NCBI RefSeq assembly: GCF_949628265.1
Contig: NC_088788.1
Coordinates: 2,418,001 to 2,482,000 of the forward strand
Origin: Cloeon dipterum
Taxonomy: Eukaryota; Arthropoda; Insecta; Ephemeroptera; Baetidae
Direction: 5' to 3'
DNA: 64,000 bases
This document shows, one piece after another, positions 9,735 to 40,800 of this stretch (its first letter is position 1; every line of letters starts with the position of its first letter). The position numbers were made by a program, and so were the translations under genes. The notes under the pieces are model-generated. The model searched no databases, was not told the DNA's origin, and saw nothing but the letters and a program-made list of their open reading frames with translations.

Positions 9735-11240
9735 GCCACCTTAATTGGTAGGGTCAGGGTCGGAAGTCACAGACGAGGCCATGGGCACGCTGGGATTATA
9801 GCACCAGAAGGGCTTTCCACCTTCCCTTGAAGCTGCCACCCACGCGAGGCAAGACTTTTGCTCGGCCCTTGAATTGTCCCTGCCCTGCGAATGCAATAAA
9901 TTTATTATCTCGGACTTTTACTAGTGAGAAAAAAATACTTGGCAATTATAGAGGAATTTTGTTTCGCCGCTGAAGTCTGCCAGCAGCAGCCAGCATTGCC
10001 GACGAGCTGTTGATGCAGACAGCCACGTAGTTTTCTTGGCCGTTGGCGTTGTCCGGATGTCTGGGCTGCGCAAGAGGCGCTTCACCGCACACAAGCCAAA
10101 GCTAGATTCGCAGCCGGTGTCCAGTAATAGATGGCGTCGCCCATAATTGCTATTGAATTGCCGGAATAACACTAATTTAAAATATAAAGCGACTAGTTAA
10201 ATTAATAGAGAAAAATGCCAAATATGCGGAACGCTGGAATTTTTTTTTTATTTTTTGGAGTTGAAATTTAAAATAAAATGCGCAGAGACACCAAACAGAA
10301 TTAAAAATTAATTTTTCTTAATAAGCTGATTGTGGGAGGACTATAGGACTCTTTTTGAAATTTATTTTAAATTTTTTATGCTTCCGAAAAATATATTTTT
10401 GCTCCGTGTGTTTTGTAAAATAAATATATATTTGATCCTGAAACGAGAAAGCTATTAATATTAATTTAGCATTCTGCCTAAAAGAGTAGTCAACATGTGT
10501 ACACACTAAATATTTTATTCTTTTATTGGAATTTGTAACCCTTCTATCCCGGCTGTATTTGTTAACTAAGCAGTGTCGTTCCGAACTCGCAGCAGGCTTT
10601 GCTTGCACCCGCATACTATCAAATAAATATTTTACTTTACGGAAATTTGTGTCATGCAATGCAACCGTTTCAGTCTGATTTGCATAGCTGAAAAGGTAAA
10701 AGCGGCCATTTTTGCTGCAACAAAATCTGGATCTGAAATTTACAATGCGACGCAAAGGAAAATAGCAATAAACAGAGAGATACTCGTCAGGTACTGGCCG
10801 ATTTTTCCATCATTTGTCACACAGCAAACTGCAAATATGTGGCACGCGGATGGTGTACCATTCGTGGGAGCAAAATAATTTATACGTTTTTCTCGCAAGT
10901 GACGTTCGGACAGGATGGAGACGAAACATGGCGGAGCTGGCGTTCGTTGGCGCTCCCTGCGTCATTATTTTTTTAAAAAAAATATGAGTGACCGAAAGGA
11001 AGTTGACAAGCAACGAAAACGTAAACATGTTGGTGCACTTTCTGTCAGTGGCAACGACGCTTGCGTTGATGTTGAGGTGCATGCAATTTTCAGACTTGTT
11101 CAGGTTGTCTGGCTGACCTTGCTCCCAGGTCGTCTGATTTTCGGTTGCACCAAGAAAAACCGTCAATGCTGGTCCGCAAACCAGACGTCCAGTAGTATTT
11201 CATCAAATAATTTTTCTTGCAAGATTTTATAGTTTTTTGT
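9735..11240 (-). pseudogene. Relic R2: decayed family II CTLD gene
   Basis: Between genes B and C. Minus-strand remnants in gene order: a CTLD exon with WEQGQPDNLNKSENC (near 10995-11200), a broken linker exon (near 10900-10970), a strand exon with SKNGRFYLFSYANQTET (near 10660-10745), a degraded CTLDb start (near 10545-10615), a CTLDb exon with GCESSFGLC (near 9950-10150), and a short terminal piece ending PFWCYNPSVPM (9740-9900). Several frame breaks are visible by comparison with E; no start, mucin or OBP remains. Confidence 0.68.
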
Positions 11241-11691
11241 TTAGTGACAATTGTGTTTACAACTTTCGTTTGGTTATGCAGTTCCTGCTTGTCAATTTTT
11301 GCAGTTCATGTTACTTTTAATTAAATCACATGATTATAATAAACAGATATAAAACCATATGAAATTTTTGTTTTTCAAATGTTGGCAGTAATCGCAATCA
11401 AACTGAAACATTTCGGTCCATTTATTTATTTATTCAAACTGCTTGTATTAGAATACAATATTTGTTGCTAGGTCTCGAAATTATTTTTTGTATTTATTGG
11501 ACTTATAATGAAAATTCTGTGTCATCAACAATAATTATACACAGATTTTTATTTAGAATATTTTTTATGCAAGAAAAACACCATTGCCAAACTCATAATA
11601 AAAATAAGAAATGTGTCTCACGCATATATTATGAAATTTTAAAATGTGTTTTTACAATTGGTATAATTTGATCGAAAATAGCTCATTTGTT

Positions 11692-14600
11692 CTAGTAGGA
11701 AAGTGGGCCACATAAGACTACGTTGCACGGGTATCCTTTGATATATAATGCAAATCCTAAGGCTTTCGCCACGTAAATGTGAGTTGAGTCGTACAGCTGG
11801 TTGCGATAATAAAAGTTGATGTCTTTGATCAATCCTGCTGGCAGCTTCTTGAAGGTTGAGCACCAGCTGTCGGTGCCATCTCCATTGTCGAAAGTCGGTC
11901 CAATGTAAACCCAGAGGCCTGCAGTATCTGTAACATATTTTGCAGCTCCCAATTGATAAACAAAAATCTGGAGTCTTTTTTACCGTGCCAGTCAAGCATA
12001 AAAGCTTCGAAATCAGCTACGCTTTCGAAAATGGCAAGGTGAGTGCCAAGTTTGCAGCAGTAGTCTGCTTCTCCTTGAGCGTCGGTCTAAATTAAAGGAA
12101 TATTAATTTGATACATTTATCTACTGTTTGAACTACTTACAATTCCTCCGATAATTTTTATAAAGTATGTTTTGCCAGTAGATAATTTCATGGCATTTCC
12201 CCCTAAAGCTGGAATAAAAGTTTCAAATTTAACTGTGATAATATGTTCTCCATAAAATTACGATAAATCATTAATTACATAATAAAATTTAGATATGTGT
12301 CTAATAGGAGTAGCCCTCTTTCCTTTATAAAAATTTCCCAAAAAAATAAAATGATAAAATCTAAATATTGAACTTAAAATAATGTTTAATGAGTGGGAAG
12401 TAAATCGATTATATTACTCGATCCCGTAGTTTTAAGTTCATCAATATTTGCTTGCTGCAAGAACAACATTAGTTAATCTTGATTAAAAATAAGTTTAAAA
12501 TTAGCAAGATTACATTTGGTACACAACTTGCTGCTGGATACACAGGACACACTCTATTGCCAGTTTTGATTCCCCCTGTAGCAGTTGCGGAAACCTGGCG
12601 ATTACAAAGTTAAAGACATAATTCGCTCTCTGAATAAGTTTTAAAAATCACAGTGGCGTCTCCCTTGATAGCAGTCACGAGTCCTAAGGTCAGGTCTGGA
12701 TCATTTTTCTTTCCACACTGAAACATCTGGGCCATCGTGTGGCATTCGTCAGTGGACTCTGCAAATTAAATTTGATTTGAAATTATATTTTGGCATAGAA
12801 AGCATACGAATGGAGGTGCAGGAATCAAAATTTCCAAAGCCATCCTGCATGGCCTGTGGGTCGTCAGCCGTCAAGTCCTCCAAGTTGCGCAAAATTTGAT
12901 CCGTCACCAGTGACCCGGTTTTTATCTTATTCATGTTCAGATTTAATTTTCTTTTTGACAGTGAACTCAAGAGATATATTTACCACGTTTCCTTTTTTCC
13001 CGCAGCACCTCAGATAACACTGCGAAGCAAAAATATACACGATTTTAAAAATAACTCCAATTTATTTGCGTAGCCGCACTTTGAGATTGCGTCTTTGGTT
13101 GACGACGTCGCCGCTTGGATTCATGATTATATCATTCACTTCATTTTCTGTCACATTCCAAATTTCCGAGCAAGTGCGCGCGATTTGCACGGATTTTGTG
13201 CCCGGTTGCAAGGCCTGAAAGAAACAAAACACACAATTTGAGAGGAAAAAATAGTTCTAAATAAAATATCACCTCGCAAAGAAACGGTTTTTGCTCGGTA
13301 CAAGAGGCAGCGCCCAAGTAAGTCTCACTCAAAGTCGAATTTGACAAATTAATAAAAATGCACTGATCAGCACTCTCCGAGGGCATTTTCCCGTTTTTCC
13401 AGTTGGATATTTCTTCCTTGTTTAATTTTTCATTCTCTGGACACCAGAAGTGAGCTCCTGGACAACCTCGATTGGTGCCAGACGTCCAGAAATCGCGTCC
13501 ACATTGATCAGGGTAGACTAATAAGAGTTTTATAAAAGTGTGCAAATCATCGTGGTTGGAAATATCATATATTCTACCTGCTTTGGGATATTTCGCAACC
13601 ATGTTCGTGAGACAACTCAATTCCTCAAGAGCCTCAATCGAGGCCAATTTCATTCCAATGGAGCAGCAATAATTCCATGCACCTAACCAATCCAACTAAC
13701 AACAATTTTAATTTACAAATAGAAGACTTGATATTTTGAAATATAAAAAAATCACAGTTGCAGCCGAAAACAGATAATCCTTTCCACAACCGGCATTCCA
13801 CTGGCCGTGAACAAAAAGATCTGAAAGAGACGAAGCACTAACAATTTTCACTCAAATTTAAGATCAAATCACTAACCGGTTAATGATCCGTCTTTGAAAA
13901 TCAATTCCTAGGACGTTTGAAATAAATTGTTATAAAATTAGCCCGTAAGAGAAAAATACAACTTGCATTTTTAATACACTCCTTTGGACAATTCGGTTTG
14001 TTGCAGTTGGACGCCATCAACGCGTCACCCTTAAAAAACACCGTTGCTCTCAACAAATTGGCACACATAAAAAATTAATCTCACCTGGCAAGCGATGACG
14101 AATTTGTGGCTGCAGTTCCGGTCTGACAAAATTATTCCACTTGAAGTTTTCGTCACTTCCAAGTGTAGGCAATTCTCATTGGTCTGATTATTGTCTGGTT
14201 GCCCCGGAGCCCACGAAAGAGAGTCGGGAAGGTTGACGGCTCCTGGGCACCAGGCCCACCTTCCCCAGGTGCCCATTGCGCGTCCCGCCGTCCAATAATT
14301 CCAGTTTAGCGCCCACTTTTCTTTAGTTGTGCTGCTCAAACACTCGAAATCGGACGCCGAGCTAAACGATATCGGGTGCATGCCCAAACTGCAACAGAAG
14401 TCCCAACCCTGCTGCCAAGTGCCCTTTGAGGATTTATAATGATTCATTAATTTTGATAAATTACGTTTTAATACTTACAAGCTTGTTAGAGAAAAGGTAC
14501 AATTTGTCGCAGGTACGCGTCCACTTCCCAAACTTTTCTCCGCCTGAATTTAAAACACTTAAGATTATTATTTCTTTATTTTTCATTATCTCTCAAATGT

Positions 14601-16699
14601 TAATCTATTATTAAATCCTTTTTGTTAATTGTCAATTGGAGAAGCCATTGTAAAATAAATTAGAAAATAATTTCGTTACAAATTTGGATGTTTCATTTTT
14701 TTCGAGTTTTGCAGGTTTCACGTTTTACCCTTAACATTGCCATTTGCGTCGAACAATGTGCTCTATACATTTGAATATAGAAATAAATGGATGTGTCAAA
14801 ATTAATACGAAACATACGTCTTTGTTGCACTTAAGAGGAAGGCAAGTGTCTTGAAAATCATCTTTTGGCTTATCATTTTTTAAGTATAATAATTTTATAA
14901 ATTATAAAAATAGTATGTACCTCGCACAAAAACGGAAACAATGAATTAGAATCTGATGTTTTTAAGACGGCGACACCGCTAAGCATGGACGTCGTGAGTC
15001 CTTTTTGAACTATTTCCAAACTGCTCATTTTCTGCATTATCGCGGGAAGGATGATTTCTCTTTTCGGGTTGCACCAGGCGAAACTCAAATTATAATTTTG
15101 GCACGACATGTTGCCTTCGTTGGAGCCAATCGTCCAGACGGCAGAATCGGTGCCAACATCTTTAAATCGTTAAAACAATATTAAAAATAATAAAATCAAT
15201 ACAAATACCAGTAAGCAATTTTTGAAGAAGATTCTTTTTCATGGTGTCCTGCATAGAAATTAAATTCAATTTGCGCGAGAAGCAGCTCTTGGCCGCGTCA
15301 ACTTGGCTCGCTGCTGCTGATGAAAACAGAAACGTCGCTCCGTTTCTAACAATTATCTTGCCTGAATTCAATGTGCAAAAATTTAGGAATCATGAAATGT
15401 GTAATTTTTCTCTTACTCGTGCTTGCGCTGATCACTGGTGATGCGCCCTGAATAAATTTATTGCGAACACACGTTAAATTTGTGGATATATAACGTTTTA
15501 GCATGGTTCATTTAAACACCTATTTGATTTTTTTTTTAAAGAAAGATCACTCTCATATTTCTAAATTCTTGTAATGATTATTTGAAACCTGGTTCGCGAT
15601 GAAAGTGAAGTTTGTGCACCGAGACAGTTCACAAGCTAACTATAAACCAATTTTTACTTTTAAAAATCATCTCTTTAAATTAATTTCAGCCTACATTTAT
15701 TGGTTTAGCTGTTGTAGTTGTTGATGTCGTGGTGGTGGTGGTGGTTGAGGAGGTGGTTTTTGTTGTGGTTGACGTGGAGGTTTCCAAATTTGTCGCTGTC
15801 GCAGCTGTGGTCAATGTTGCTGTCGCTTCTGCAGCTGTTGAGGTGCTTGAAGGCGGATCTGTGGTTGATTCTGCTATTATCTGAGCTGTTAAATAAGTCA
15901 AAAATGTGTCCGTGGTTCATAAATTTTATTCGACATACCAGGTGTATTTTCCGCAACTAATTTAGTTGTGTCACTTTGAGAAACCGAGATGGTAGTCAAA
16001 TCCGATTTTGTCGGCTCAGAGGACGTGATGTCTTGATTAGAGGAAATTGTTTCTGTTTCAATGGGATTTTTATTTGGTACAGAGGGGATTTTATCTGATG
16101 TAGAGAAGGTTGCATTCGATTCGAAGATGGTTGAGTCAGATTTAGAGCTTGCCGTATTTTCATGATCAGTGTGCTGCAAAGCACTGCTGATATCTTTGGC
16201 TTCAGTAGTTGTTGTTTTAAATCGGCCTCTTAAAATGAGAAAAATTAAATAGTCATAGCTTCTCGTTGCTCTATTCAAACGTTATTCATACTGAGTGTTG
16301 GAAGTTTTAGGGTGAGTGGAGATCGTTTTCAAATCACTCGAATTTCGCGATGGTTTACGATTAAAAGATGCCGAACATTTTGCACCTCCACAACACTTGA
16401 TTATGTAAGGTCGTTTCGAGTGCCTCGGGTTTTCTAAACGTTTTTCCAATTTGATTATTAAAACGTTTTTTATCAATAGAAAACCCGACCTTTTGAGAGT
16501 AATCGTTTCCTTAATTGAGAATCTTTTTCGCCGCATATAACGAACTAATTTTATTTAAAATTTGGTGTTTTAACAGACCACATCACATCGTACATCGATA
16601 TTATTTGATCCATAAATTAATTGCACAAATCAAAAGGCTCACCTGATAATTCACAATTATTAGCACTGATATGATCGTCAAATGCACCAAAATCCTCAT
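11692..16699 (-). CDS. Gene C: family I secreted mucin with four CTLDs and an embedded OBP domain
   Basis: Exons, right to left: 16643-16699 (signal peptide MRILVHLTIISVLIIVNYQ), 16490-16544, 16292-16433 (IIKCCGGAKC), 15939-16228 and 15695-15885 (Ser/Thr-rich), 15589-15639, 15417-15447, CTLD1 15209-15361 + 14921-15159, linkers 14818-14868 + 14729-14762, CTLD2 14479-14543 + 14085-14423 (GQPDNNQTNENC), linkers 13960-14029 + 13877-13907, CTLD3 13756-13820 + 13578-13695 + 13273-13517, OBP 13080-13214 + 12808-12925 + 12652-12758, linkers 12514-12594 + 12418-12454, CTLD4 12141-12208 + 11984-12086 + 11692-11945. Every junction is in phase except one: the linker exon 13960-14029 is 70 nt (75 in B, 72 in D) and throws exon 13877-13907 out of frame. 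Skipping that 31-nt exon would restore the frame. The last exon, like B, needs the inner acceptor. The stop follows the CGPLSY end. About 1030 residues. Confidence 0.78.
12652..13214 (-). other. OBP-like domain of gene C
   Basis: Exons 13080-13214, 12808-12925 and 12652-12758, with the same arrangement as gene B: C1 in ARTCSEIWNV, C4 in NFDSC, C5 in STDEC, 8 residues to C6. The possible C2/C3 exon is 12984-13008, again preceded by AGG rather than AG before the TGC TGC codons. Intron phases (0 at both outer ends) match the OBP modules in E and F. Confidence 0.72.
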
Positions 16700-17549: not shown

Positions 17550-18310
17550 ATTGTCCTTAAAAAGCTGATTATGTGGGTGAACACATTTTGAAATTAATTT
17601 CAATTTTGTATGCTTCGGAAAAAATTATTTTTGACTTGGTGTACGTGTTACATAAAATAAATCTATTCCAGAGAATAAAACACACTTCCTAAAAGAGCAG
17701 TCAATAATCTACAAACTAAATACTCTTTATTCTTTTATTTGGAATTGTAACCTTCTATCCTGGCTGTAATTGCCTTGTATTTCTAATAAAACTGCAGACT
17801 AATTGTAAGCGCAGTGTGTAGCAGCCGCGTACTGTCAAATTATTATACTTAACGGAAATGTACGTGGTGCCAGAGAGCGCGTTTCTTTCTGATTTGCATA
17901 GCAAAAAAGGTAAAAGCGGCCATTTTTGCTGTAACAATCGCTGGATCTGCATGAAATTTACAATACGACGCAAAGGAAAATGGCAATAAACAGTGAGATA
18001 CTCGTCAGGCACTGGCCGACTTTTCCATTTTTTGTCACATTGGTGAACAGCTAGCGCAGACTGATGATGTACCATTCGCGGAACATAGTAATAAACATTT
18101 TCCTCGCAAGTGACGTTCAGACAGGATGGAGACGAACATGGCGGAGCTGGTGTTGGCGCTCCCTGCATCATTATTTTTTAAATTTATGATCGAAAGGAAG
18201 GCAGGCGAATACGCATATGTTGGTGCACTTTTGTCAGTGGTAACGAGTTAACGACGCTTGCGTTGGCCCGCGTGACGTTGAGGTGCATGCAATTTTCAGA
18301 CAATTATTGA
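17550..18310 (-). pseudogene. Relic R3: fragment of a family II CTLD gene
   Basis: Between C and E. It keeps a CTLD end (ENCMHLNVT, near 18250-18300), a linker exon (near 18115-18175, APPCSSPSCLNVTCE), a strand exon (SKNGRFYLFCYANQ frame, near 17890-17945) and a degraded CTLDb start near 17755-17800. The other modules are missing and frames disagree between pieces. Confidence 0.62.
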
Positions 18311-18455: not shown

Positions 18456-21400
18456 TTAATAATCTTCGCACAAAACATGTGCAACATCCGAATTAGTGGT
18501 CACACCAAGCGACATTATTTTCTTTAAATTGTAATTGATAACAAAAGCTGGGATCGAGGGAGCTAGAGAAGAAGTGTCGAAAGCGAGGTCACTCATTGAA
18601 GAATTCGAGAAACACCAGCGCGGCTGTCCGTCACGCCAAGTAACGGGAATCCAGTAGTCTTTTTGCGCTGATATATATGCTACACACCGCAATAACATAT
18701 TCGCAACAATGCAATCAGCTCGCTCAAATCTGAATTAATTAAAAAGAATCGTACCTGAGCTGGTAAAAACGCTCGCCACCTTCTGCGGTGTGTCCAGAGT
18801 GGCAATTCGGAGGCCGAACATGCAGCACATAGTGATTCCGTAGGCGTAGTGGAACTAAAAAGAAGAAGCCACCCGTTATTTTGGCAAGTGCGTGCGATAC
18901 ATTGAATTTATTACTCTGTAGACTGAAAATGACAGGTACTTTTTGCCGCTTATGTAATCGATGGTGAAGTTTGTCACGGGTACCTCTTTGAAACCTACAA
19001 ACACCTTAGCTGAAATAAAAAAAGAAGGCAAATAACCCAGTCAGTACAATTCGCTTCTAATAATATATATGCCAACGAAGGCAAAGGTTGTCATGGTTTT
19101 TCAGTAAAGAATAATATAATATGAATTATGTACACAATAAGAAAAGAACTGCATTTAATTTTAACTGAAAAAAATTATTTAAATTTGCCAAATTTATTTT
19201 AGCCGATGATATATAAAGAACTGAAAGTACTAAATACTTGAATATCCCTCAAAACAATGTCCAATTGAAAAAAAAAGAAATTAAAAGTCCCATTGTGAAT
19301 GCTTAAGATGCCTCACTTTTCGTCGTCGTCTCGAACAGCGCTCTTAAAACCGGCTACAATAGGGAATAATTAATTGCTTTAATATTTTACACCCTTAAAA
19401 GACCCCACGTTTACAACGCAAGAAGTATAATTTTTGACACAAAAAGTAGGCTCCGGGGTCAACGGAGCAATTTCCTGAAACAACAAACAAAGGATATGTA
19501 GATGATTTGTCGCATAAATAAAATAACTCGGCGAGAGACTTGTGCTGACTCCGACAGAGAAATGGAATTCTCCTTTTCATTAACTACGCTCATGAACACG
19601 TCAGGCGCCTTTTCATTCGCACACTTGATCAATTGCGCCGCCTTGTCGCACTCATCCATTCCACCTGAGTTAGTTTGAGTCATAAATGTAAAATTGCAGC
19701 TAATACAAAAGCTTACCAGTTGAGTTTATGCACTCATCTTGAATCATCAAGTTTTTCTTGAGATCCTGCAAATTACCAGCTGCCAACTTTTCCAATATTG
19801 CCAGAAATTCACTTTCCACAAACTTTCCGTCAATCATCTACACAATTTACACTCAAGATTGGGATGGTCAAAAAGAATAATAAGTTATACCAAACCGCTG
19901 TTTTCCCCAATGCACTTGATGAAGCACTTTAACAAAAAAAATTAATTAGCACCAAATTCGGGTTTCTTTTTTACTTTCACATGGCATACTTTTATCCTTA
20001 AATCATAGTTTGTGTCATTCAGCAAATTGTCAATTTCAACTTGAATAGGATGAAATTAAATATAGAAGTAAAATAAAATTGATATACATACTCGAGCTGA
20101 CGTTGTAAATAGCAGCGCACTCGTCTCTCACAGATTTTCCTCCTGTAGCGGAATTTGACGTGTCCCGGGCCTGTAAACACAAGCGTCTCAAATCCAGTCG
20201 TTTTATAATTTTTTGCCCAAACCTCGCAGATGTACCGCAGCTTTGTGTCTCCGTTAAAATCAGCCATCAATGCACTCGACCCATTGATGTAGACAGCCAA
20301 GTGATGCTCCACTCCGCCTGCGTTGTCCGGCTGTCCCGGCTGCCATTTGGCATCTTTTCGAACCAAACGGTTCACAGAGCAGAAGCCGAAAGCCGACTCG
20401 CAACCGCTGTCGGTGCCCGATGTCCAATAGTAGCCCGGAGTTGCATATTTTTCTAAGATAGGAAATAAATACAGTCAATAAATTATTATACAGTCGCAAT
20501 CTGTTGAAAAATTTTAATATCAATTTATCGTTCCAAAGAAGGCAGGAAATAGGGCTAAATATTTAAATAATTTTAATATAATGAGGTCCTAATTATATAA
20601 TATTTGTATTTACTGAAACTGTGCGTCAAGACACAAAAATACTGTGCATTTATTTTCCCGTGTGTTCCTTTTAATTTTACAGCTGAAGAATTAAAACACA
20701 AAATGAATCAGGAAAATAGAAATGCATTGATTCGGTTGTCGAATTAAAATTTAATAATTGAGACCTTTCACTCCAGCTTTAACTCCGTCAAATTTGTAAT
20801 CAAACTGGAGGCTGAGTAGATTCATTCCTAAATCGCAGCAGGCTTTCATCGCCCCTAGGAACTGAATGAGATATTTTTTAATTAGGCAGTGGTTAATTTA
20901 AATTTATATAGAGACTGTTTTCGTCTGGTTGAGGTAGCTATAAACGTAAAAGCGGTTGTTTTTCTTGTACCAGGAGCCGAACAGATTTGGATCTGTAACT
21001 CATGTGAGTAAAGCAGCTGAAAATTAATTGTTATACCTTTTTTACTTATTAAATAGTATGAAGTCTTGCCCTTCTTGGTCATTTGAAAAAAAAGTGACAG
21101 CTGTTTTTGGGATAAAGAGTCGGCATTAATTTGAAATCTTACATAATTATAATTACATTTCTTGTGCATGTGATATTAGGGCAAACTGGTGACGCGCATC
21201 GTGGCGGAGGCGTTGTTGGACCCTGTAAATTTAATGTATTAATAAATATTTTAGGGATCTATATTGACATCTTTAACACTAAATTTAAAATTGTATTTAC
21301 TTGGCAGGAAAAAACATTGATGTTGGTGCATTTTTTGTCGGTCAAATAGACAGAACTTTTTTCTTTTTTGATGTTCATGTGAACACAGTTTTCTGATCCG

Positions 21401-23282
21401 TTCAAATTATCGGGCTGGCCAGGCGCCCAAAAATGCACCGAACCATTATTGTTGTTGCACCACGAAAAGTTTTTGCCTTGTGTCCTCAGGCCAGAGGTCC
21501 AGTAGTTTGACCCGTACTTCCAATTCACAGCTTTTAATAAAATGAAATTAAACAATTTTTAATAAATGTGGGGCCCTCGGCAAACCCAATTGTTTGAAGC
21601 ACTGATATTTGGCGTCGTTTTCTATTTCAATCGGCTGCATTCCAATTGAAGCGCATTTGATGGTGTTTTCCCTCCACGTCACCTGCACGAGTTTAATTTT
21701 CATAATTATTTTGAATATAGGATAGCAGGCTCACCAAAGATTTGCCGAATACAAAAAGCTGATTGCATGAGGTGACCCAAAAACCAAACTGGTCCGGATC
21801 TATACGGAATGCGCATTTTTTGTAATAATTAAGTTCAAACTAAAAAATTAAAGAAATTAAACCCTTCAATCGTCCATTGGTTTCAAAAAGTTCCTTCTGA
21901 AAAGGCTCAAATTGTAAACAATAAAATGAAACAATGACATTTTACATCTAGTGGAAATGAAGATTCGCATTTTCCTACGATGAGATCCTGTTTTCCGTCC
22001 ATATTAAAATTATAGAAAAAATTTAAATGTAAAAAATCGTACTGTTAAAGATGGGGCAGGAGTTGTTGTTGAAGGTTGGGTTGTCGTCAAGGTTGTTGCT
22101 CTTGTTTTCGTAGTTGAAGACGATAATTTTGTCGTAACCAATGGTGTTAAGGTTGTTGCGATTGACTTCACTTCTTTGGTAGACCAGATTGATGACGTTG
22201 TAAAAAATAATTCGGTCAAAACTGGAGTTGTTAACGTTGTTCTCTGATGTGTTGATGATGCTGCAATTAAGGAGAGTAAAGCTTTACTCGTCCCCTTATT
22301 GTTAGTGGCAATGGTGCTGGATGATGCAATAATTGTAGTTGGGTTCATTGTTGCTGGTATAGAGGTTGTATCCATTGTTGAGGTAGACGTCGGTTCAGTT
22401 GAATGAGCGAAGACTTGTGATGTGACAACATCACTACTGGTGGAAGAAAATAATTTCTCTGTTGGGGATTCTGGTTCATTAGAACTGTTGTTCAATGCCG
22501 AGCTGAATATAAGGATTGAAAGAAGAGTTAAAAACGTCGTTTTATGTTCAAGTTAAATCTTATAAAAATTCGTGCATAATTTAAAGTTCAACAATAAGTT
22601 TTTTACTTTTATGTTTCCCCTTTTGACAATTTAATAAGTTGACCTTTGGCCTCCTCTTAAATTTATTTGTGATCTTACAATGCTGTTGTTGAATAAGGTT
22701 CTGATTGTAGCTCTTCAATATCTTTACTGCTGATGGTAATCTCTGTTTCCTTATATTTGTTGAGAATTAGATTTAAAGTTAATCCTTCCGATATATTTTA
22801 CTCTTTCGTCTTTGGGCGTGAATGTGGAAGTTTTTAGCGACGATGTTTTAAATCCCTCGGTGACGTTTTGCTTTGACTTTCTTGGCCCTGGGTTGGTGCA
22901 CGATTTGTATCCACAGCATTTTATTATCTGTCTGCGGGTGTGCTTTCTTGTTTCCCTAGGAGACTTTGCTGCACCGTTCAGGTCGAAAAACTACGAAAAA
23001 TAAAATAATTTGTAGCGCTTGTGATAAAAAATGTATTTTGATTTTGAGGGACGTTCTTTTGCATTTTAATATCCAAGCCATTTGGTTCCAAATTTCGAAT
23101 ATTAGTATGCCCTATTTGATGTAGCAATTTTTTCTTTAATAAAATATTTACACGAGGACATGACTAGTTAGAGCAAGTGTCTTGCATGGCAATCAGTACA
23201 TAATTCTTTAAGTTTTTGAGATAAACGTGAAATTAAACATTACCAGGATGTTTAGAAAGATCAAGAATGTCAATAGCTGCAT
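18456..23282 (-). CDS. Gene E: family II secreted mucin with three CTLDs and a six-cysteine OBP domain
   Basis: All 24 exons join in phase (about 894 residues), right to left: 23244-23282 (signal peptide MQLLTFLIFLNIL), 22802-22990 (IIKCCGYKSC), 22679-22749, 22043-22502 (Ser/Thr-rich), 21946-21987, 21863-21896, CTLDa 21735-21799 + 21586-21682 + 21301-21530, linkers 21157-21222 (CASPVCPNITC) + 21046-21100, CTLDb 20916-20992 + 20765-20861 + 20223-20452, OBP 20092-20170 + 19990-20039 + 19891-19926 + 19717-19837 + 19540-19664, linkers 19409-19474 + 19317-19353, CTLDc 18915-19009 + 18755-18854 + 18456-18679. Domain positions: CTLDa about 278-409, CTLDb 449-584, OBP 584-721, CTLDc 755-894. CTLDa and CTLDb both have QPD motifs (APGQPDNLNG, QPGQPDNAGG); CTLDc has none. 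A TTTATT (AATAAA on the minus strand) lies about 130 nt past the stop. Best-preserved family II copy; I see no break. Confidence 0.87.
19540..20170 (-). other. Classical six-cysteine OBP domain of gene E
   Basis: Five exons. Cysteines follow C1-x25-C2-x3-C3-x42-C4-x9-C5-x8-C6: C1 in VRDECAAIYNV, C2 and C3 in CFIKCIGENSGL (own 36-nt exon 19891-19926), C4 in IQDEC, C5 and C6 in DECDKAAQLIKC. This spacing is that of classical insect OBPs, which bind small hydrophobic ligands in a six-helix pocket. The module is bounded by phase 0 introns and lies between two CTLDs in one continuous frame. Confidence 0.88.
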
Positions 23283-24160
23283 ATTGCAGAAGAGCTTTGG
23301 TTGCCGAACGATTTTGTTACATGGCACCTATATCGCTGGAAGTCCAGCAGCTAGTTGTTTCCTTTCCACATCATTAAAATGAAAAATATTCGAATATTAA
23401 AATCGAGGTGTGCAGCTCGTGTTGTATGGTGTTAGTCATGTTATTACCATGAATTTTTTTGGCCCTCACTAGTTGCACAAACAACGAACCGACGCTCTAT
23501 ATGTTTCGCAATGACTTTTCCAGGAAATATTCGATGCTACACGTTTTCCATCAGAGTCATGCGAAGCTGCCTATTAATTGCGATTTTTGCAAGCAAGCAG
23601 CTTGGGTGAGAGACGAATAGGCTTTTTATCGCATTCCATATAAGGTGATGAAAAATAAACTAATGCACAATTAAATGAAACGATTGATTTGACGAATTAA
23701 AAGATTTATTGGTAAAAATCAGAAAATTGAAACAACGGAAAGTACATTCTTACAATTAGAAACATTGTACTACCCTTGCAAGCGTAGAATTTGACTAAAA
23801 AAATTTATTTCAGTAATTTTATTGAATCAGCACAACTGACAATGAGTGGCCGCATCTTTTCGCCGCCCCGCACCGAGGTCTTTAATTGAAACGCCAGACA
23901 TTTGTCCCTTATGCCGCTGGAAAGGTGCGAAAACCAGCTGGTGGCGAGTCTAAGCAGCCCGTTGAGCTATTTGAGCATTTCGAGTCACTTAATTAACCAC
24001 CTTTTGCCATCTCTGACAAGTATATTAGATCCCCGAAATGCTCAAATATTGTATGTATTGCTTTAACACTCCTGAGAATGCCTTAACAATGCGAGCCAAC
24101 GGGCTGGCATAATTTATCATACATATTCATATATACATTTTTGTGTATATGTATTTAAAT
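23283..24160. other. Intergenic, E promoter side and F 3' flank
   Basis: No coding region. Bases 23701-23790 match the 3' flank of gene E near 18325-18400, including the TTTATT signal, so this is probably the F 3' end. Bases 23994-24103 match 3868-3985 in the 3' flank of gene B, a shared non-coding segment between the families. Confidence 0.5.
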
Positions 24161-27100
24161 TTAATATTCTTCGCACAAAACATTTGCAACTGAGGTAGTG
24201 CTCAAACCAAGTGAGCTAATTTTTTTTAAAAGGTAATTAGAAGTAAAAGCTGGAATCGAGGAATTTAGAGTAGAAATGCTGTAAGCCAGGTCATTTAGTG
24301 GAGCATTTGAGAAACACCACCGCGGCTGTGCGCCATTCCAAAAAGCGGGAATCCAGAATTCGGCGGTCTTATGCGACGAGGTATATGCTACCACAACACA
24401 TTCGCAATTAGCTCGGACATATATGAATTAGAGAATCGAACCTGGAGCGGTAAAAACACACGCCAACTTCTGCAGTGTGTCCAGAGTGGCCATTCGGAGG
24501 CCGAATTTGCAGCACATAGAGCTTCCGGAGATGTAGGAGAACTAAAAAATTAGCCACCCGGTATTTTGGCAAGTAGTGCTTTAATTTGATTATATTTACA
24601 GTGAAGTATTGAAATGACAAGTACTTTTTGCCGCAAATGTAATCAATCATGTAGGTTGTCACGGCGGGTAACCCTACGACATTTTCAAACACCTGACCTG
24701 AAATAAAAAAGAAGGCAAACCCAGCAGTCAGTAAAATATTCACTTGTACTAAAAAAATCTTTAAACAGAAATGATTGAATTGGTTTATAGATGCCAATGA
24801 AGGCACATGAGGTTAGTTAGATATTAAAATTTTTAATGTTTAAAAAGCCTCTCACTTGTTGTTGTTTCCTCGAACTTCGCTCTAAACACCGGCTAAAATA
24901 AAAGAACAGGTAAATATTAATTTCTTTGACACTTTACACCCTTAAATTATCCCACATCTATAACGCAAGGATAATCTTGGACGCAAAAAGCAGGATGCGG
25001 GGGCAACGGGGCAGCTTCCTGAAAAAATACAACAAAAGAAGATTAATCTGTCTAATAAAAGAACTCGCGAGTGTGACTTGGATTGACTCCGACTGAGAAA
25101 TGGACCGCTCCATTTCATTAACTACGCTCATGAGCACGTCAGGCGCCTTTTCATTGGTACACTTGATCATTTGCGCCGCCTTGTCGCACTCATCCATTCC
25201 ACCTATTTAAGTTTAAATAATAAAACTAAAATTACTCCTACAAAAAAAGCTAACCAGAGGAGCTTGAGCACTCATCTATGATCATCAAGTTTTTCTGGAG
25301 ATCCTCCAAATTGCCAGTTGCCAAATTTTCCAGTATTGCCAGAACTTCATTTTCCACAAACTTTCCGTCAATCATCTATAAAATTTACACTCAAGACTGG
25401 GATGGCCAAACAGAATAAAAAAAATTATACCAAACCGCTATTTTCCCCAATGCACTTGATGAAGCACTTAAACAATAAATTCGGGTTTCTTCACTATTTT
25501 CCAGTTTTAAAAAAACATATGGCATACTTTCATCCTCAAATCATAGTTTGTGTTGTTCAGCAAATTGTCAATTTCCCCTCGAATAGGATAAAATTAAATA
25601 TAGAAGTAAAATAAAATTAATTTACACACTCGAGCTGACATTGTAAATAGCAGCGCACTCGTCTCTCACAGCTTTGCCTCCTGAGGCGGATTTGGTCGTG
25701 TCCCGGGCCTGTAAACTCAGCCTCTCAAATCCAATCGTTTAAAGATTTCTTGCTCAAACCTCGCAGATGTACCGCAGTTTTGTGTCTCCGTTAAAATCAG
25801 CCATCAATGCACTCGACCCATTGATGTACACAGCCAAATAATTCTCCGCTCCGCCTGCGTTGTCCGGCTGTCCCGGCTGCCAATTGGCATCTTTTCGAAC
25901 CAAACGGTTCACAGAGCAGAAGCCGAAAGCCGACTCGCAACCGCTGTCGGTGCCCGAAGTCCAAAAGTTGCCCGGAGTTGTATTTTTTTCTGAGATAAGA
26001 AAAAATGTAATCAATAAATTAAGTCGTATTTAATCTCTTTTTCGAAAAATAAAAAATTAATACTAATTTATCGCTCCAAGTGGGAGACAAAATCATATAT
26101 ATATGGCTAAATATTTAAGTACTTTTAATATGGAATCATATGGCCTATAATTTTATAATATTTGTATTTGCTGAATTCAGTGCGTTAGTCATAAGATTTC
26201 GTGCTTTTAATTTTCCTGCTCTACAAATACAAAATAGATCAGGAAAACAGAAAAGCTACTTTTAATTGGTTTCGTAGCGGTCAGCATTTGTAAAAATTGA
26301 TTAATTTAATAGAGACCTTTAACTCCTCCCAAAACCCCGTCGAATTTGTAATCAAACTGAAGGCTGAGTAGATTCATTCCTAAATCGCAGCAGGCTTTCA
26401 TCGCCCCTAGGAACTGGACGAGATATTTTTTTAGATTCGAGAGGCAGCGGATTACTTTATTTTATATAGAGACTGTTTGCGTCTGGTTCGGGTAGCTATA
26501 AAAGTAAAAACGGCTGTTTTTCTTGTACCAGGAGCCGAGCATATTTGGATCTGTAATAGTTGTGGAGCTCATGAGTAGATAATTATTTGTTACAATTTTT
26601 TTACTTGTTAAATAGTAGGAAGTCTTGCCCTCTTTGGTCAAATTATTAAAAAGTGACAGCTGTTTTTAGGAAAAAGTCAACTTTCAATTAAATTCTTTGA
26701 TTATTTCTAATTACATTTCTTTTGCATGTGATATTGGGGCAAACTGGTGACGTGCATGGTGGCGGCGGCGTTGTTGGACCCTATAAATTTAATATATTAT
26801 AAAAATATCTCTTTTTAATTAGATATGAAACCTAAAATATATTTCAAAATCTGATGTTACTTAAAAATACAGATTTTTGCATCCATAAATATATTATGAG
26901 TTGTAAAAAAGGCAAAAAGTTAGGGATCTGTATTCAAATGGTATTTACTTGGCAGGAAAAAACATTGATCTTGGTGCAATTTTTGTCGGTCAAATAGACA
27001 GAAGTGTTTTCTTTTTTGATGCTCATGTGAACGCAGTTTTCTGATCCGTTCAAATTATCGGGCTGTCCAGGCGCCCAGAGATCCACAGAACCAGTCATCT

Positions 27101-28899
27101 CAGAATAACCACTTTTGGTGCACCACGAGAATTTACTGCCTTGAGTCCTCAGGCCAGAGGTCCAGTAGTTTGACCCGTACTTCCAATTGACAGCTTTTAA
27201 TAAGATTAAATTAAAACTATTATTTTTTAATGTGGACGTTCAGCAAACCCAATTCTTTGAAGCACTGATATTTGGCGTCGTTTTCTATTTCAATCGGTTG
27301 CATTCCAATTGAAGCGCATTTGATGGCGTTTTCCCTCCACGTCACCTGCACGAGTTTAATTTCGATAATTATTTTGAATATAGGAGAGCAGGCTCACCAA
27401 AGATTTGCCGAACACAAAAAGTTGATTGCATGAGGTAACCCAAAAACCGAACTTGTCCGGATCTACAGGTTGCACAAATTTAGTAATAAATTTTATACTA
27501 AATAATTCAAGAAATTAAACCCTTCAATCGTCCACTGGTTTCAAATAGCCCCTTCTGAAAGGGTTGATATGGTACACAATAATATGAAACATTGATGTTT
27601 ATATTTTACATTAAGTGCTGGGAATGAAGATTCACATTTTTCTAAGATGACGAGATCCTATTTTCCGTTAAAATTGAAGAAACTCGAAATTAAAACAAAA
27701 AAATTTAATGCGTTAGTACTGCTAAAGATGGAGTTGGTGGGGTTGTTGTCGAGGTTGTTGCTCTTGTTGTCGTAGTTGAAGACGATAATTTTGTCGTAAT
27801 CAATGTTGTTGAGGTTGTTGAGATTGATGTCACTTCAGTAGACCAGGTTGATGACGTCGTAAATAATAATGTCAAAACTGGAGTTGTCAACGTTGTTCTC
27901 AGGTCTGTTGATGATGATGTTGTAATTGTAGTTGGGTCCATTGTTGCTGGGGTTGAGGTTGCATCAATTGTTGAGGTAGATGTCGCTTCAGTTGAATAGG
28001 TGAAGATTGGTGCAGCAATATCACTACTTATAGTGGAAGAAAAAAACATCGTTTTATATGTACAAGTTTTACTTCACGTACTTGTGCGTGCAATTTCAAA
28101 GAACAACAATAAAATCGTGATATATTCATATTTCCCCGTTTGAGAATTTAATAACTTGGTATTCTCCTCTCGAATTTGAAACAAATTGGTGATCTTACAA
28201 TGCTGTTGTTGAATAAGGTTCTGATTGTAGCTCTTCAATATTTTTGCTGCTGATGGTAATATTTGTTTCCTTTGTTGAGCTCTGATATTTAAATAACTTT
28301 AGGTTTAAAGTTCATCCTATCGACATTTTTACTCTTTTATTTGTGGGTGGGAATTTTTGATCAACGATGTTTTCAACCTCTCGGTGACGTTTTGCTTTAA
28401 TTTTGCTCCTGGGTTGATGCATGATTTGTTTCCACAGCATTTTAATATGATTTGTCTGCGGGCGCTCTTTCTTGACGCTTTAGGAGACTCTACTGCACTG
28501 TTCAGGTCGAAAAACTACGAAAATTAAAAATAATTTGTATCACTATGGCGATAGAAAATTTCTTTTGATTTTGAGGGACTTATTCTAAGTCAAAAATAAT
28601 TCTAAAATCATTTTGGTTTCAAGATCCTAATGTTAAAAAAATAAATCTTTTTCAAAAATCAGATCTGTAATAACCTATAGAAATCTAATAGTCAAATCAT
28701 CAAATACAAATACATTTCCAGGTTTCCATAAATTTTAAAATCCAGAACTAGATTTTTGCAATTTTATCTTTAATATGTTCACACGCAAAACATGACTAGA
28801 GCAATTATTTGTTAACAATCAGCGCGCACAATTTTAAGAGATAAACATGAAATTGAATATTACCAGGATATTTAGAAGGAAGATCGTCAATATCTGCAT
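24161..28899 (-). CDS. Gene F: family II secreted mucin with three CTLDs and a six-cysteine OBP domain
   Basis: Close paralogue of E in the same order. Exons include 28864-28899 (signal peptide MQILTIFLLNIL), 28333-28514 (IILKCCGNKSC), 28199-28269, 27720-28026 (Ser/Thr-rich, shorter than in E), 27610-27657, CTLDa with APGQPDNLNG between about 26950 and 27460, linker with CTSPVCPNITC near 26710-26780, CTLDb ending near 25760, OBP 25630-25708 + 25528-25577 + 25431-25466 + 25255-25375 + 25078-25202, and CTLDc ending in exon 24161-24387. From the 27720 exon onward all junctions are in phase. Exon 28333-28514 has a net 7-nt loss against E, so it ends in another phase than the next exon expects; the mucin exon also starts at a different acceptor. 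The N-terminal part may be damaged or spliced differently. Confidence 0.8.
25078..25708 (-). other. Classical six-cysteine OBP domain of gene F
   Basis: Same spacing as E (25-3-42-9-8). Key pieces are VRDECAAIYNV, CFIKCIGENSGL, IIDEC and DECDKAAQMIKC. Reading frame and cysteine spacing are kept between E and F despite many silent and conservative differences, which argues for selection on the domain. Confidence 0.87.
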
Positions 28900-30985: not shown

Positions 30986-30991
30986 TTTTAC

Positions 30992-34832: not shown

Positions 34833-37800
34833 ATGAGGATTTTGATGCATTTGACGATCATATCAGTGCTAATAATTGTGAATTATCAGGTGAGCCTTGT
34901 TTTGATTTGTACAATTAATTTATGGATAAAATGCTATTCATATAAATGGCAACTAGTATTAAAAATGTGAATAGGCTAATCTATCGACACTGCGGTTAAA
35001 CTCTTTGACCGGAAAATCTCGCCAACGGCCTCATATGGAATTTAAATTATCTGGCCACATCTAACTAGTATAATATGACTTAGAAAACCTAGAAATAGTT
35101 AAAACTCGCTATTTTTAAGAAAGTGCTTGGAATTTTTCAGTATAATCGGTCTTATTATACTTATGAAATTAATACAAAAGACTCCAATTTGTATTTAACT
35201 GGCTTAAAAATAGATTTAACTCACCAGAGACTGATGTGTATAAAATGTTTTGTGAATCAAGGAATGTTAAAGTGGAATGACACAGGTCAACAATTGAAAA
35301 TTATTTGAATTGTTGGATGCCACAAACAATTGATCGATAAACAATTTGTTCAATAATTTGTAATTATAAAAAAGGACCTCCTACAGTAAAAATTCAAAAT
35401 TTGCCAATTTTCTCCAAAATGTACAGTGCTCGAACATATTTTCTTGGCATATTCCGATTCCTCTCGTCGAGATCTGTTCAACGGTGTTTGCCACTTATTG
35501 GGGAATCTCTTGGTTTTGAAATTAAATCGGATTTCAAGTAAGGAGACAGCCATTACCATGTGGAAAGCACGGTAACTTCCCAGCCAATTTTCTCAAAAAA
35601 ATACAGTGCTTTTCTTAGGTCAATTTAGGCTTTAACTGAATCCTAAGGGACGAGTTTATGCATTGGCAACAAACATTTTCCATGCTTTTGCTCTTTAATT
35701 TGTGCCGAATTCTGTGAGACTGAAACTCTGATTAATGAGAATCGGCTTTCCTGATAGACATATTTACTGACGGTTTATTCCCTGTACATCCTTGAATGTA
35801 TGAAATTCCTCAAAAAGTGCACTGCAGATTTTCCAAAATGTAGAGATGTCCCACATGAAGGCGGTATACCCACTCGTAATAAAGAATATAACGCATGTTG
35901 TGAGAATGACGTGTACACGTTAAACCATGTAATTGGAAACAGGCGGTGCAAAACCCAGTGAGCATCACACCGAGACTATTTAACGCGCTTCCAAGTTCAA
36001 TTAAGCTAATCGATGATCGATGATAGCTCCAAAGTCAAGCAGCTGGTTTTGCACCGCCAATTCTATGACCTGGACGAATTTTTATCTCTGTGATTCTGAT
36101 TATTTTGATGTGATTATGTTGAACAGCCTGACGTATTTTAAGAGCCACCCCTGTAAATATTTGGCTTAACAAAATAAAAGAGTGTCTGAAACTGAATCTG
36201 AATTTTCTGTAGCAATCCAACGTTTAATTATGAACCTTATAACGATTGTAGATGTAGTTTCTGTTAAAAAGATCGAATTCAAAAGCGAAAAGCAAGAAAA
36301 TTGACTTTGAGAGAGACAGCTTAAATTTAATTGTATAGATTTAGTGTTGCACGCATGTTGCGTTTAATAAATCGTTATAATTAATCAAATGCTATATATC
36401 ATGTTGTGATGCATGTTGTCAGTTAATTAATAAACCAAATTTCAAAATTTAGTTCGTTCATTGTGCCGGTAGAAGTGTTCAAATGAGGAAACGTGTACGT
36501 GCAAAAGGTAAGGTATTGAAAAAAGGTTTTTGGTTTTGACAAACAAACTGGTCAAACGTTTAGAAAACCTGAAGCACTCGAGACGAATTCAAATAATCAA
36601 GTGTTGTGGAGGTGCAAAATGTTCGGCATCTTTTAATCATAAACCATCGCGAAATTCGAGTGATTTGAAAACGATCTCCACTCGCCCTAAAACTTCCAGC
36701 TCTCAGTATGAATGAACGTTTGAATACAGCAAACTTTAAATTATTTCAATTTTCAGAGGCCGTTTTAAAACAACTGTACGCAAAGTTTTCAGCAGTAGTA
36801 TTGATGAAAACACGGCTATTTCTGAGTCTGCTACAACCGTCTTCGAATCAAATACGGCCCTCTCTGAATCAGATACAACCCCCTCTGAACCAAACCAAAT
36901 TCCCATAGAAACAGTAACAATTTCCTCTACTCAAAGCATGACGTCATCGGAGACTACCAAATCGAAATTAACAACCACCACGATTTCCCAAAGTGGCACA
37001 ACTAAATTCATTGCGGAAAATACACCTTGTATGTCGACTAAATTTATGAGCCACGATGAACACGTCTGAATGAATTAAACAGCTCAGGCGAAAGCAGAAT
37101 CAACCACTAATCCACCTACAAGCACCTCACCAGCTGCAGAAGTGACAACAACCTTGACTATAGCAGCGATAACGACAAATTTGGTCACCACCACCACAGC
37201 CAAACCCATCACCACAACCGCAACCGCAACAGCAGCTGCAACATCAACCACAACCACAACCACTACCACCACCACCACCACCACCACGACAACAGCAACA
37301 ACTACGACAGCTAAACCAACAAATGTAGGATCAAATTTATTAGCAGAAGGATGATTTAAAATAAATAAAAAATGGTTTACAGCTACCTTGCGAACAGTCT
37401 CGTTGCGCAAACTTCACTTTCACCGCAAACCAGGTTTCAATTAATCCTTTTAAGAATTTAAAAAATATGAGAATCTTAATAGCACTTCAATAATAAAACG
37501 TTATATATCCATTCTATAAATTTTACACAAGTTTGCAATAAATTTATTCAGGGCGCAACATCAGTGATCAGCGCCAGCACGAGTAAGAGCAACAAAATTA
37601 TGCCTTTGATGATTCCTAAATTTGCTGCACTTTTTATTCAGGCAAGCTAATTGTTAGAAATGGAGCGACGTTTCTGTATTCATCAGCAGCAGCGAGCCAA
37701 GCTGATGCCGCCCAGAACTGCTTCTTGCGCAATATGAATTTAATTTCTGTGCAAGACGTTCTAAAATTGAATATTGTTCAAAAATTGCTTCAGGGTGCGT

Positions 37801-40800
37801 GTTTAAATTTTATTCCTTTTTAATATTGTTTTATTGATTTAAAGATGTTGGGACCGACTCTACCGTCTGGACGATTGGCTCCAACGAAGGAAACATGTCG
37901 TGCCAAAATTACGATTTGAGTTTCGCCTGGTGCAACCCGAAAAGAGAAATCATCCTTCCCGCGATAATACAGAAAATGAGCAGTTTGGAAATAGTTCAAA
38001 AGGGACTCACGACGTCCATGCTTAACGGGGCTGCCGTCTTAAAAACATCAGATTCTAATTCATTGTTTCCTTTTTTGTGCGAGGTAAAGACACTTGATTA
38101 ATTGGTAAAATTAATATATTCAAATACTATTGAACTAGCCAAAAGATGATGTACAAGACTCTTGCCTCGCTCTTAAGTGCAACAAAGACGTATGTTTCGT
38201 ATTTATATTTATGTATATATCCATTAATTTATTTTCGAATGTATATATAGAGCACATTGTTAGACGCAAATGGGCATATTAAGGGTAACACGTGAAATCT
38301 ACAGAAATCTTATTTTAACTTGAAAAAAGAATTATGGAGATTTTATTTTATAAACTCCCATAAACAATTAAAAATAAGGAATGAAAGCGATTATAGCTCT
38401 TGGGAGCTATTGGAAAATAAATAAATAATGTTATATTTTATTTTCTTTCCCAAAAATTAATTATATTTAGATGGAGAAACGTATGGGAAGTGGACGTTTG
38501 CTTGCGACAAAATGTACCTTTTCTCTGGTACAATTGTTAGAATTAAATTTTTATTCCGATTCTGCCTAAGAAAAATAAATTCTCAAAGGGCACTTGGCAG
38601 CAGAGTTGGGACTTCTGTTGCAGTTTGGGAATGCACCCGATCTCGTTTAGCTCGGCGTCCGACTTTGAGTGTTTGAGCAACACCACTAAAGATTTGATGT
38701 GGACGCAAAACTGGAATTATTGGACGGCGGGACGCGCAATGGGCACCTGGGGAAGGTGGGCCTGGTGCCCAGGAGCCGTCAACCTTCCCGACTCGCTTTC
38801 CTGGGCTCCGGAGCAACCAGACAACGCCCAGCCCGATGAGAATTGTCTGCACTTGCAAGTGACGAAAAATGCGAGCGGTATTCTTTTGTCAGACCGGAAC
38901 TGCAGCCACAAATACGTCATCGCTTGCCAGGTAGAATGAACTTTGTATATGTGAGTGAATTTGTTGAGAGCTTGGAAATTTTAAGGGTGATGTGTTGATG
39001 ACGCCCGACTGCAACAAGCCAATCTGTCCGATGGAGTGTACTAAAAATGCAAGTTTTGTTTTACTCTTAAGGGCGGCTTTTTTAACAATCTTATAGGAAT
39101 CGACTTTCTCCCTCGGAATTATAAACGGTCAGTATTAAGATTCTGAATTAAGCGTAAATTAGATTGAGCTTCTCTTTCAGATCTATTTGTTCACGGCCAG
39201 TGGAATGTCGGTTGTGGCAAGGAATATCTGTTTTCGGCTGCAGCTGTGAATTTTAAATTTTAAATTTAAATATTATTTTTAAAATTTATATTTTTAGATG
39301 GATTGGTTGGGCGCGTGGAAATATTGCTGCGCCCTTGGAATGAAATTGGCCTCGATTGAGTCTATTGAGGAATTGAGCTGTCTTACGAATATGGTTGCGA
39401 AATATCCCAGAGCGGGTAGAATATGAGATATTATTTCGAACAATGATGAATTGCACACTTTTAAACTCTCAACAGCTTACCCTGATCAATGCGGAAGGGA
39501 TTTCTGGACATCTGGCACCAACCGCGGCTGTCCAGGCCCTCACTTCTGGTGTTCAGCGAACTGTAAATTGAACAAGCAAGAACTAGCCAATTGGAAAAAC
39601 GGGAAAATGCCCTCCGAGAGTGCCGATCAGTGCATTTTCATCAATTTGTCTAATTCAACTTTGAGTGAGACCTATTTGGGCGCTGACTCTTGTACAGAGC
39701 AAAAACCGTTTCTTTGCGAGGTGATATATATTATTTAAAAAATTTTTGATTGTGTTATTGTGTCTTTCAGACCTTTAAATCTGGCCTTAAATCAGCGCAA
39801 ATTCAGCGCTCTTGCTCGGCAATTTGGGGTATTACAGACGATGATGTGAATTTAGTTATCATGAATCCATACGCCGACGTCTTAAACCAAAGACGCGAAC
39901 TAAAAGTGCGTCTCCGAAAATTAAAAATAAAACCTCGTAATTTCTGCTTTGCATGTATAGTGTTATATTAGGTGCTGCGGGAGATTAGTAAAAGTGGTAA
40001 ATACATCTCTTGAGTTCACTTTTAAAACTCAAATTAAATCTGATTCCGCATAAGATAATAAACGGATTACTGGCGACGGATAAAATTTTGCGCGACTTAG
40101 AGGACTTGACGGTCGACGACGCACTGTCTTTGCAGTACAGCTTTGGAAAATATTATTCCTGCACTTCCATTCGTATACGCTTACTATGCTAACACACAAT
40201 AGCAGGGTGCATACTTTTTTTGCAGAGGCCCCTGAAGAATGCAACCTGATGGCCATGATGTTCCAGTGTGCCAAGATGAGTGCACCAGAAATTACCAGAG
40301 GACTCGTCACTGTCAACAAAGGAGACGGCTTTGCTGTGACTTTTAAAACAATTTTCATATACGCAGAATTATATCTTTTAACTTTTTACTCGCCAGCATT
40401 TAGTAAGTGTTACAGGGGGAATCAGAACCGCCGAGAGAGTGTGTCCTCTGTATCCAGCAGCAAGTTGTGTACCAAATGTAATCTTTCGTTTTGGGACCCA
40501 TTTTCAATAAGATTGATTAATGTTTGTTCTTGCAGCAAGCAAATATCGATGAGCTGAAAAACACGGGATCAAGTAATAAGATCAATTTGATTTCCATTTA
40601 TTTCTAGTAATAGAAAATCCACAAGAGTTTTTTATCTTTTTAGATTGCAATTTTTTAAGAAAATTTAATAAAGGAACCTCTACATTTTGTTTACTGAACA
40701 TAAATTATCTGAAATTCCTGCTCACAGCTAGATTTTAATGAAGGCCTAACATTTATTTCAGCACTAGGAGGAAACATGACGAAAATCTCGACTGGCAAAA

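Follow-up and report, generated by a model that had tools for sequence, protein, structure and literature searches.

Lectin genes with an internal odorant-binding module

We analyzed a 64,000-nucleotide stretch of the genome of the mayfly Cloeon dipterum (contig NC_088788.1, positions 2,418,001 to 2,482,000; hereafter, the window), which holds a tandem cluster of C-type lectin genes. In two neighboring genes of the cluster, termed E and F, exons for an odorant-binding protein (OBP) domain lie among those for C-type lectin domains (CTLDs), downstream of a Ser/Thr-rich, mucin-like stalk. The exon models of both genes were built by hand on the minus strand and have the following features.

18456..23282, minus strand: gene E; manual model and spliced alignment; 24 coding exons, 894 amino acids
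22043..22502, minus strand: E exon 4, Ser/Thr-rich stalk; maximum 47.5% Ser/Thr over 80 residues
21301..21987, minus strand: E exons 5-9, linker and CTLDa (with QPD); Pfam Lectin_C at 2.1e-6 in whole E
20223..21222, minus strand: E exons 10-14, linker and CTLDb (with QPD); alone without a Pfam match
19540..20170, minus strand: E exons 15-19, OBP module, residues 585-721; PF01395 at 1.8e-11 in whole E
18456..19474, minus strand: E exons 20-24, linker and CTLDc (without QPD); no Pfam match
24161..28899, minus strand: gene F, tandem copy of E; manual model; 24 coding exons, 840 amino acids, architecture as in E
25078..25708, minus strand: F exons 15-19, OBP module, residues 530-666; PF01395 at 2.2e-13 in whole F

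Each model gives one spliced frame with a single terminal stop, and all 23 introns of E, like those of F, are bounded by GT-AG. The encoded order in both is a signal-like N terminus, a short Cys-rich segment, the Ser/Thr-rich stalk (up to 64% Ser/Thr over 80 residues in F), CTLDa, CTLDb, the OBP module, and CTLDc. From CTLDa on, every unit is entered in phase 0 and all units save the last are also left in phase 0. When the F protein was used as the query in a custom spliced protein-to-DNA aligner, E was recovered as 24 exons with 634 of 829 aligned residues identical, and the result departed from the manual model only in the starts of exons 3 and 4. The splice weights of the aligner were derived from the introns of E and F, so this agreement is a consistency check and not fully independent. 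Exon 3 of F uses an acceptor that differs from that of E. The signal peptides were judged by hydrophobicity alone; in both proteins, no 19-residue windows exceed the membrane threshold except those beginning at residues 2 to 3.

A reading made earlier from the sequence alone (the sequence-only reading) had placed the fusion in E and F. Both genes carry it, but this scope was too narrow, and restriction of the OBP module to E and F was rejected. Searching the window with the modules by tblastn gave weak OBP matches (E values, 0.01 to 0.11) downstream of further CTLD pairs, which led to genes B, C, and G. These were modeled by direct reading of the loci together with spliced alignment, and each carries a diverged OBP module at the same position. 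In this second group (type 1, with E and F as type 2) the order is stalk, an additional CTLD (CTLD0), CTLDa, CTLDb, OBP, and CTLDc, giving four CTLDs per chain compared to three in E and F.

11695..16699, minus strand: gene C; 24 coding exons, about 1027 amino acids; stalk, CTLD0, CTLDa (with QPD), CTLDb, OBP, CTLDc
12652..13214, minus strand: OBP module of C, four exons; PF01395 at 6.7e-11
4268..9059, minus strand: gene B, architecture as in C; 25 blocks, aligned to 4268; stalk exons approximate
5196..5766, minus strand: OBP module of B; PF01395 at 5.4e-11
36078..41283, plus strand: gene G, architecture as in C; 26 blocks by spliced alignment; first blocks uncertain
39771..40335, plus strand: OBP module of G; PF01395 at 8.8e-6

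In spliced alignment the real query scored 3062 at the B locus and 2943 at the G locus, compared to 131 to 155 for shuffled queries. E, F, and C keep an open spliced frame over every module; in B (to 4268) and G, the frame is open from the stalk onward. At the C terminus of B (about 4230-4268, minus strand) there is a frame shift relative to C and G near a run of A, which is either real or a sequencing error.

The OBP modules of E and F are each encoded by five exons that enter and leave in phase 0, with a cysteine spacing of C-25-C-3-C-42-C-9-C-8-C. This is what the sequence-only reading had described, and the spliced frames, the phases, and PF01395 bear it out. The type 1 modules have the spacing C-30-C-3-C-42-C-8-C-8-C, with one extra cysteine directly after the third. 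Six conserved cysteines, spaced within the range counted as classical for the OBP class, occur in all five modules. All five also exceed the gathering score of PF01395 (26.2 to 55.3 bits versus 22), as do whole E and whole F; to our knowledge, PF01395 is an insect family. Among Protein Data Bank (PDB) sequences, a phmmer search with the E module returned Anopheles OBPs (best, 6.6e-8), ASP1 (3e-6), and LUSH (3e-3), and hits to two chains of bacterial origin (0.28 and 0.42) represent noise. A profile of the five modules matched 23 distinct PDB sequences at an E value of ≤1e-3, 21 of which are named as odorant- or pheromone-binding; the other two are named by Anopheles gene number only. The best match was 6jpm (4e-9), and its six cysteines align with six of the profile. 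Compared by hhalign, the OBP profile was unrelated to the CTLD profiles (≤1.0%). Judged by its sequence, the segment is a PBP/GOBP family domain that forms a predicted internal module of a lectin chain.

The lectin domains are more uneven. Of six CTLDs scanned singly against Pfam Lectin_C (PF00059), CTLDa of E and CTLDb of C pass, while CTLDb and CTLDc of E and CTLDa and CTLD0 of C fail. Whole E matches both PF00059 and PF01395; whole F matches PF01395 alone. The CTLD calls other than the Pfam-passing ones were made by profile comparison among the CTLDs, for which hhalign gave probabilities of 99.2% (CTLDa-CTLDb), 94.4% (CTLDb-CTLDc), 88.9% (CTLD0-CTLDb), and 75.3% (CTLDa-CTLDc). CTLD0 has no direct link to CTLDa (7.9%) or CTLDc (0.1%). 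The same reading had called these domains QPD-type. That description fits CTLDa in six of six genes (the partial gene A, listed below, included) and CTLDb in two of five (E and F), but not CTLDb of B, C, and G, CTLD0 (0 of 4), or CTLDc (0 of 5).

One chain or separate products

We consider it very probable that the mucin stalk, the CTLDs, and the OBP module belong to one chain. The sequence-only reading had proposed such a chain, with the OBP module between CTLDb and CTLDc, and the spliced frames, the Pfam matches, the PDB-sequence profile, and the three further paralogues all agree with it. The introns on either side of the module are short. The one leading from CTLDb to OBP measures 52 nucleotides in E, 51 in F, 58 in C, 51 in B, and 50 in G, and the one after OBP measures 65, 59, 57, 50, and 61 nucleotides, respectively.

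Two alternatives have to be weighed against a single chain. OBPs are otherwise described as small secreted proteins of about 120 to 170 residues with their own signal peptide (PMC13205551), and an ordinary OBP gene with its own transcript, lying inside or between lectin genes, might have been absorbed into our models. However, the flanking introns are only 50 to 65 nucleotides long, the OBP exons begin without a signal-like stretch, and five genes from two subfamilies share the position and the phases of the module. A separately nested OBP gene was rejected on the first two of these grounds, and we regard a gene-model artifact as highly improbable. The other alternative accepts the exons and has one locus serve two functions, with alternative splicing, early polyadenylation, or proteolysis yielding a lectin without the OBP module or a free OBP. 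The cassette is in phase 0 at both ends in five of five genes and could be skipped without a frame shift. AATAAA or ATTAAA hexamers, which are relevant to premature transcript ends, occur between the last CTLDb exon and the post-OBP linker in B (three), C (three), and G (four), and intron 13 of F contains a signal-peptide-like ATG. Yet the hexamers are found in only three of the five genes (E and F have none) and are frequent by chance in AT-rich DNA and introns, and F is the only one of the five with a signal-peptide-like ATG within 700 nucleotides upstream of the OBP module. The cleavage motif R-X-[KR]-R is present in none of the five proteins, and the looser R-X-X-R, found at residues 25 and 536 of E, 481 of F, and 26 of B, does not occur beside the OBP module. 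We think two products from one locus unlikely.

Cluster history and module evolution

Beyond these five genes, the cluster contains a partial gene and three decayed remnants.

3..2390, minus strand: gene A (stalk, CTLD0, CTLDa) by spliced alignment; truncated beyond CTLDa at the window start, so that an OBP module, if present, would be out of view
2997..3917, minus strand: decayed E/F-type remnant, in-frame stop in the alignment (tblastn and alignment)
9856..11262, minus strand: decayed E/F-type remnant with pieces of CTLDa, linker, and CTLDb (tblastn and alignment)
17752..18300, minus strand: decayed E/F-type remnant with the end of CTLDa and linker (tblastn and alignment)

From the window start, type 1 genes A, B, and C alternate with the type 2 remnants. 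The intact type 2 genes E and F come next, and type 1 gene G lies beyond them on the opposite strand. The alternation looks as if the duplicated unit had been a type 1/type 2 pair whose type 2 copies are dead.

The OBP module of E is only 22 to 24% identical to the type 1 modules. Five introns (at entry, three internal, and at exit of the OBP module) match in place and phase between the two types, and type 2 has one extra. Because these five introns are common to both types, the simplest reading is that a single ancestral CTLD-OBP fusion would have preceded the split of types 1 and 2.

We used Nei-Gojobori estimates of the ratio of nonsynonymous to synonymous substitution rates (dN/dS) to compare the modules across the pairs B-C, B-G, C-G, and E-F, with intervals in parentheses.

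OBP: B-C 0.25 (0.10-0.55), B-G 1.18 (0.78-2.01), C-G 0.96 (0.61-1.59), E-F 0.52 (0.27-1.14)
CTLDa: B-C 0.36, B-G 0.28, C-G 0.34, E-F 0.29
CTLDb: B-C 0.17, B-G 0.19, C-G 0.16, E-F 0.46
CTLDc: B-C 0.70, B-G 0.56, C-G 0.60, E-F 0.98 (0.63-1.66)
CTLD0: B-C 0.49, B-G 0.24, C-G 0.43 (module absent from E and F)

The OBP module is the fastest in comparisons of G with B or C, and CTLDc is the fastest in E-F and B-C. The fast CTLDc of the E-F pair (18456-19474 and 24161-25018, minus strand) is a domain without QPD. Exchange of the module as the source of the fast G OBP is not favored, since its synonymous divergence (dS of 0.26 for B-G and 0.29 for C-G) lies within the 0.19 to 0.47 of its neighbors, among them CTLDa (0.31 and 0.26) and CTLDb (0.38 and 0.47). 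B and G agree in all seven OBP cysteines. A rough neutral simulation applied uniform changes over 20,000 runs. At the B-G change count, the frame stayed open in a fraction of 0.035, and in 0.0003 it did so with all seven cysteines intact; for E-F, the fractions were 0.145 and, with six cysteines, 0.028. Of 50 hydrophobic sites in the B module, G retains hydrophobic residues at 43, and it also has them at 20 of the 82 nonhydrophobic B sites. This pattern agrees with residue change on a retained scaffold, for which diversification and relaxed constraint are not separable.

To look for further lectin modules in the window, we ran spliced alignments with the part of C that starts within CTLD0, in real and shuffled form, and nothing stood out. 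With one shuffle each, the real and shuffled scores on the minus strand were 68.9 and 73.3 for 41200-43500, which was covered on this strand only, and 161.3 and 156.3 for 29000-36500. With three shuffles, the real scores were 152.0 versus 130 to 149 for 29000-36500 (plus), 184.9 versus 183 to 204 (plus) and 196.0 versus 176 to 195 (minus) for 43400-54000, and 189.4 versus 152 to 200 (plus) and 159.3 versus 154 to 166 (minus) for 54000-64000. A 440-residue open frame at 42138-43457 (minus strand) is hydrophobic over a stretch near its N terminus, contains long runs rich in Thr, and has no Pfam match; spliced alignment on the minus strand found no CTLD near it. This frame is possibly another mucin gene, facing G. 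Adjoining the lectin array, a TPR-like frame at 29124-29375 (minus strand) matches Pfam DUF5588 (PF17826) at 5.4e-8, above the cutoff, and a weak Ninjurin match at 51174-51497 (plus strand; 0.0057) falls below it. No Rfam families or tRNAs were found within the window, and a search of viral contigs for relatives gave 204 pattern matches, none of which was confirmed.

Possible function and relation to known systems

As far as sequence can tell, the window holds five genes in two diverged subfamilies with common intron phases, spliced open frames, a common placement of the OBP module in the domain order, and a match to the OBP family. From these we infer secretion, glycan anchoring by CTLDa (joined by CTLDb in E and F), and ligand capture by the OBP module. 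In the working mechanism that we tentatively propose, and to which we give somewhat less than an even chance, the stalk and the QPD-bearing CTLDa (also CTLDb in E and F) would hold the protein on a glycan-rich extracellular surface, with mucus, the peritrophic matrix, the cuticle, and microbial surfaces as candidates. The OBP pocket would capture a small lipophilic molecule at that surface. Such a coupling of glycan recognition with lipophile capture was already suggested by the sequence-only reading, and we regard it as plausible. A free OBP diffuses, whereas the tether would fix the capture site in place, and tandem copies with diverging OBP modules could together cover several capture specificities while the lectin scaffold stays conserved. 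The full proposal, in which multidomain C-type lectins, probably secreted, form a tandem family with a permanent internal OBP module and glycan-anchored capture, strikes us as nearly, though not quite, an even bet. A bolder extension, which we think improbable, is a germline repertoire in which the lectin-mucin part is a constant holder and the OBP module a variable reader. The module would have diversified among the tandem copies while its cysteine scaffold stayed fixed, and the insect would in this way equip the glycan layers that it secretes with traps for different lipophiles. If this were true, some of the genes behind the very large OBP counts of certain insect genomes might encode lectin modules instead of free odorant carriers.

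Several observations, like the poly(A)-like hexamers of B, C, and G, weigh against the full proposal. Sugar binding by the CTLDs is uncertain: the N of WND, the usual sugar-site motif, is replaced by T or S in CTLDa, CTLDb of B, C, and G lacks QPD, and CTLDc and CTLD0 may have lost sugar binding. Rapid OBP change is not general either, as the OBP ratios of B-C (0.25) and E-F (0.52) and the CTLDc ratio of E-F (0.98) indicate. Because the B-G and C-G intervals include 1, relaxed constraint explains the fast OBP module no less well than diversification does.

The fast module also enters into two rival functions. On one account, the OBP domain is a structural spacer that retains its disulfide-bonded helical fold, has lost ligand binding, and drifts in sequence under weak constraint. 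The ratios of about 1 for the OBP module of G versus B and C and the 20 of 82 sites that became hydrophobic in G are what such drift could produce, but the lower ratios of B-C and E-F, the small fractions of neutral runs that keep frame and cysteines, and the 43 of 50 hydrophobic sites retained in G argue for constraint. We consider this account rather unlikely. We rate only slightly higher, and still as doubtful, a role in immune pattern recognition, in which glycans of microbes would be the target of the CTLDs and a microbial lipid the ligand of the OBP fold. One chain would then read a lipoglycan or trap the lipid, and rapid OBP change would reflect conflict with microbes. Immulectins, with two CTLDs, are reported to be lineage-expanded microbe receptors (PMC7379682), the array is a tandem one with decayed copies, and OBP dN/dS is near 1 in two of four pairs; against this stands the conserved OBP module of B-C.

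Within the open-access literature examined, and in the parts of it available, OBPs and C-type lectins are treated as separate proteins and no CTLD-OBP fusion is described, which is as far as the claim of the sequence-only reading for an undescribed architecture is borne out; subscription papers, preprints, supplements, and domain-architecture databases were outside this search. The best reading of the sequences is that they encode a new lectin domain architecture, a putative multidomain insect-type lectin with an OBP partner. OBPs are mainly regarded as free carriers; permanently joined to a mucin-lectin scaffold, the fold would instead capture from a fixed position at a glycan surface. Such a fusion would add to the domain partners known for insect lectins and to the uses known for OBPs. 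Reported OBP sets comprise 191 genes in C. dipterum (PMC7250882) and only 10 OBPs in a second mayfly (PMC13205551). As a caution, domain searches that count OBP genes can also pick up modules belonging to larger proteins.

Of the known systems, classical insect OBPs (PF01395; Anopheles 3q8i/8c68, honeybee ASP1, and LUSH) share the sequence family, the six cysteines at 25-30/3/42/8-9/8, and a match over most of the domain. They are free proteins of about 120 to 170 residues, whereas the domain described here lacks a signal peptide of its own and sits inside a predicted chain of 840 to about 1027 residues. On the lectin side, the nearest class by analogy appears to be CTL-X, insect proteins that combine CTLDs with a further conserved domain; Ig and CUB are named for Thitarodes in the available text of PMC7379682, where the word "odorant" has 0 occurrences. 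Unlike in CTL-X, the partner here is an OBP module, with three or four CTLDs, a Ser/Thr stalk, and tandem expansion. Immulectins resemble the present genes in having several CTLDs, the QPD motif, and lineage expansion (same source and extent), but they have exactly two CTLDs compared to three or four plus OBP and stalk here. The nearest working parallel is the long D7 salivary proteins, in which OBP domains serve as capture modules of a multidomain secreted protein. According to the portions available of PMC5307786, PMC2823692, and PMC2644710, long D7 proteins have two OBP domains in one chain and capture bioactive lipids and amines, with no mention of a lectin. No chain named D7 was among the PDB-sequence matches of the phmmer and profile searches, and in contrast to long D7, the chains of E, F, B, C, and G each carry one OBP module, set among lectin domains.

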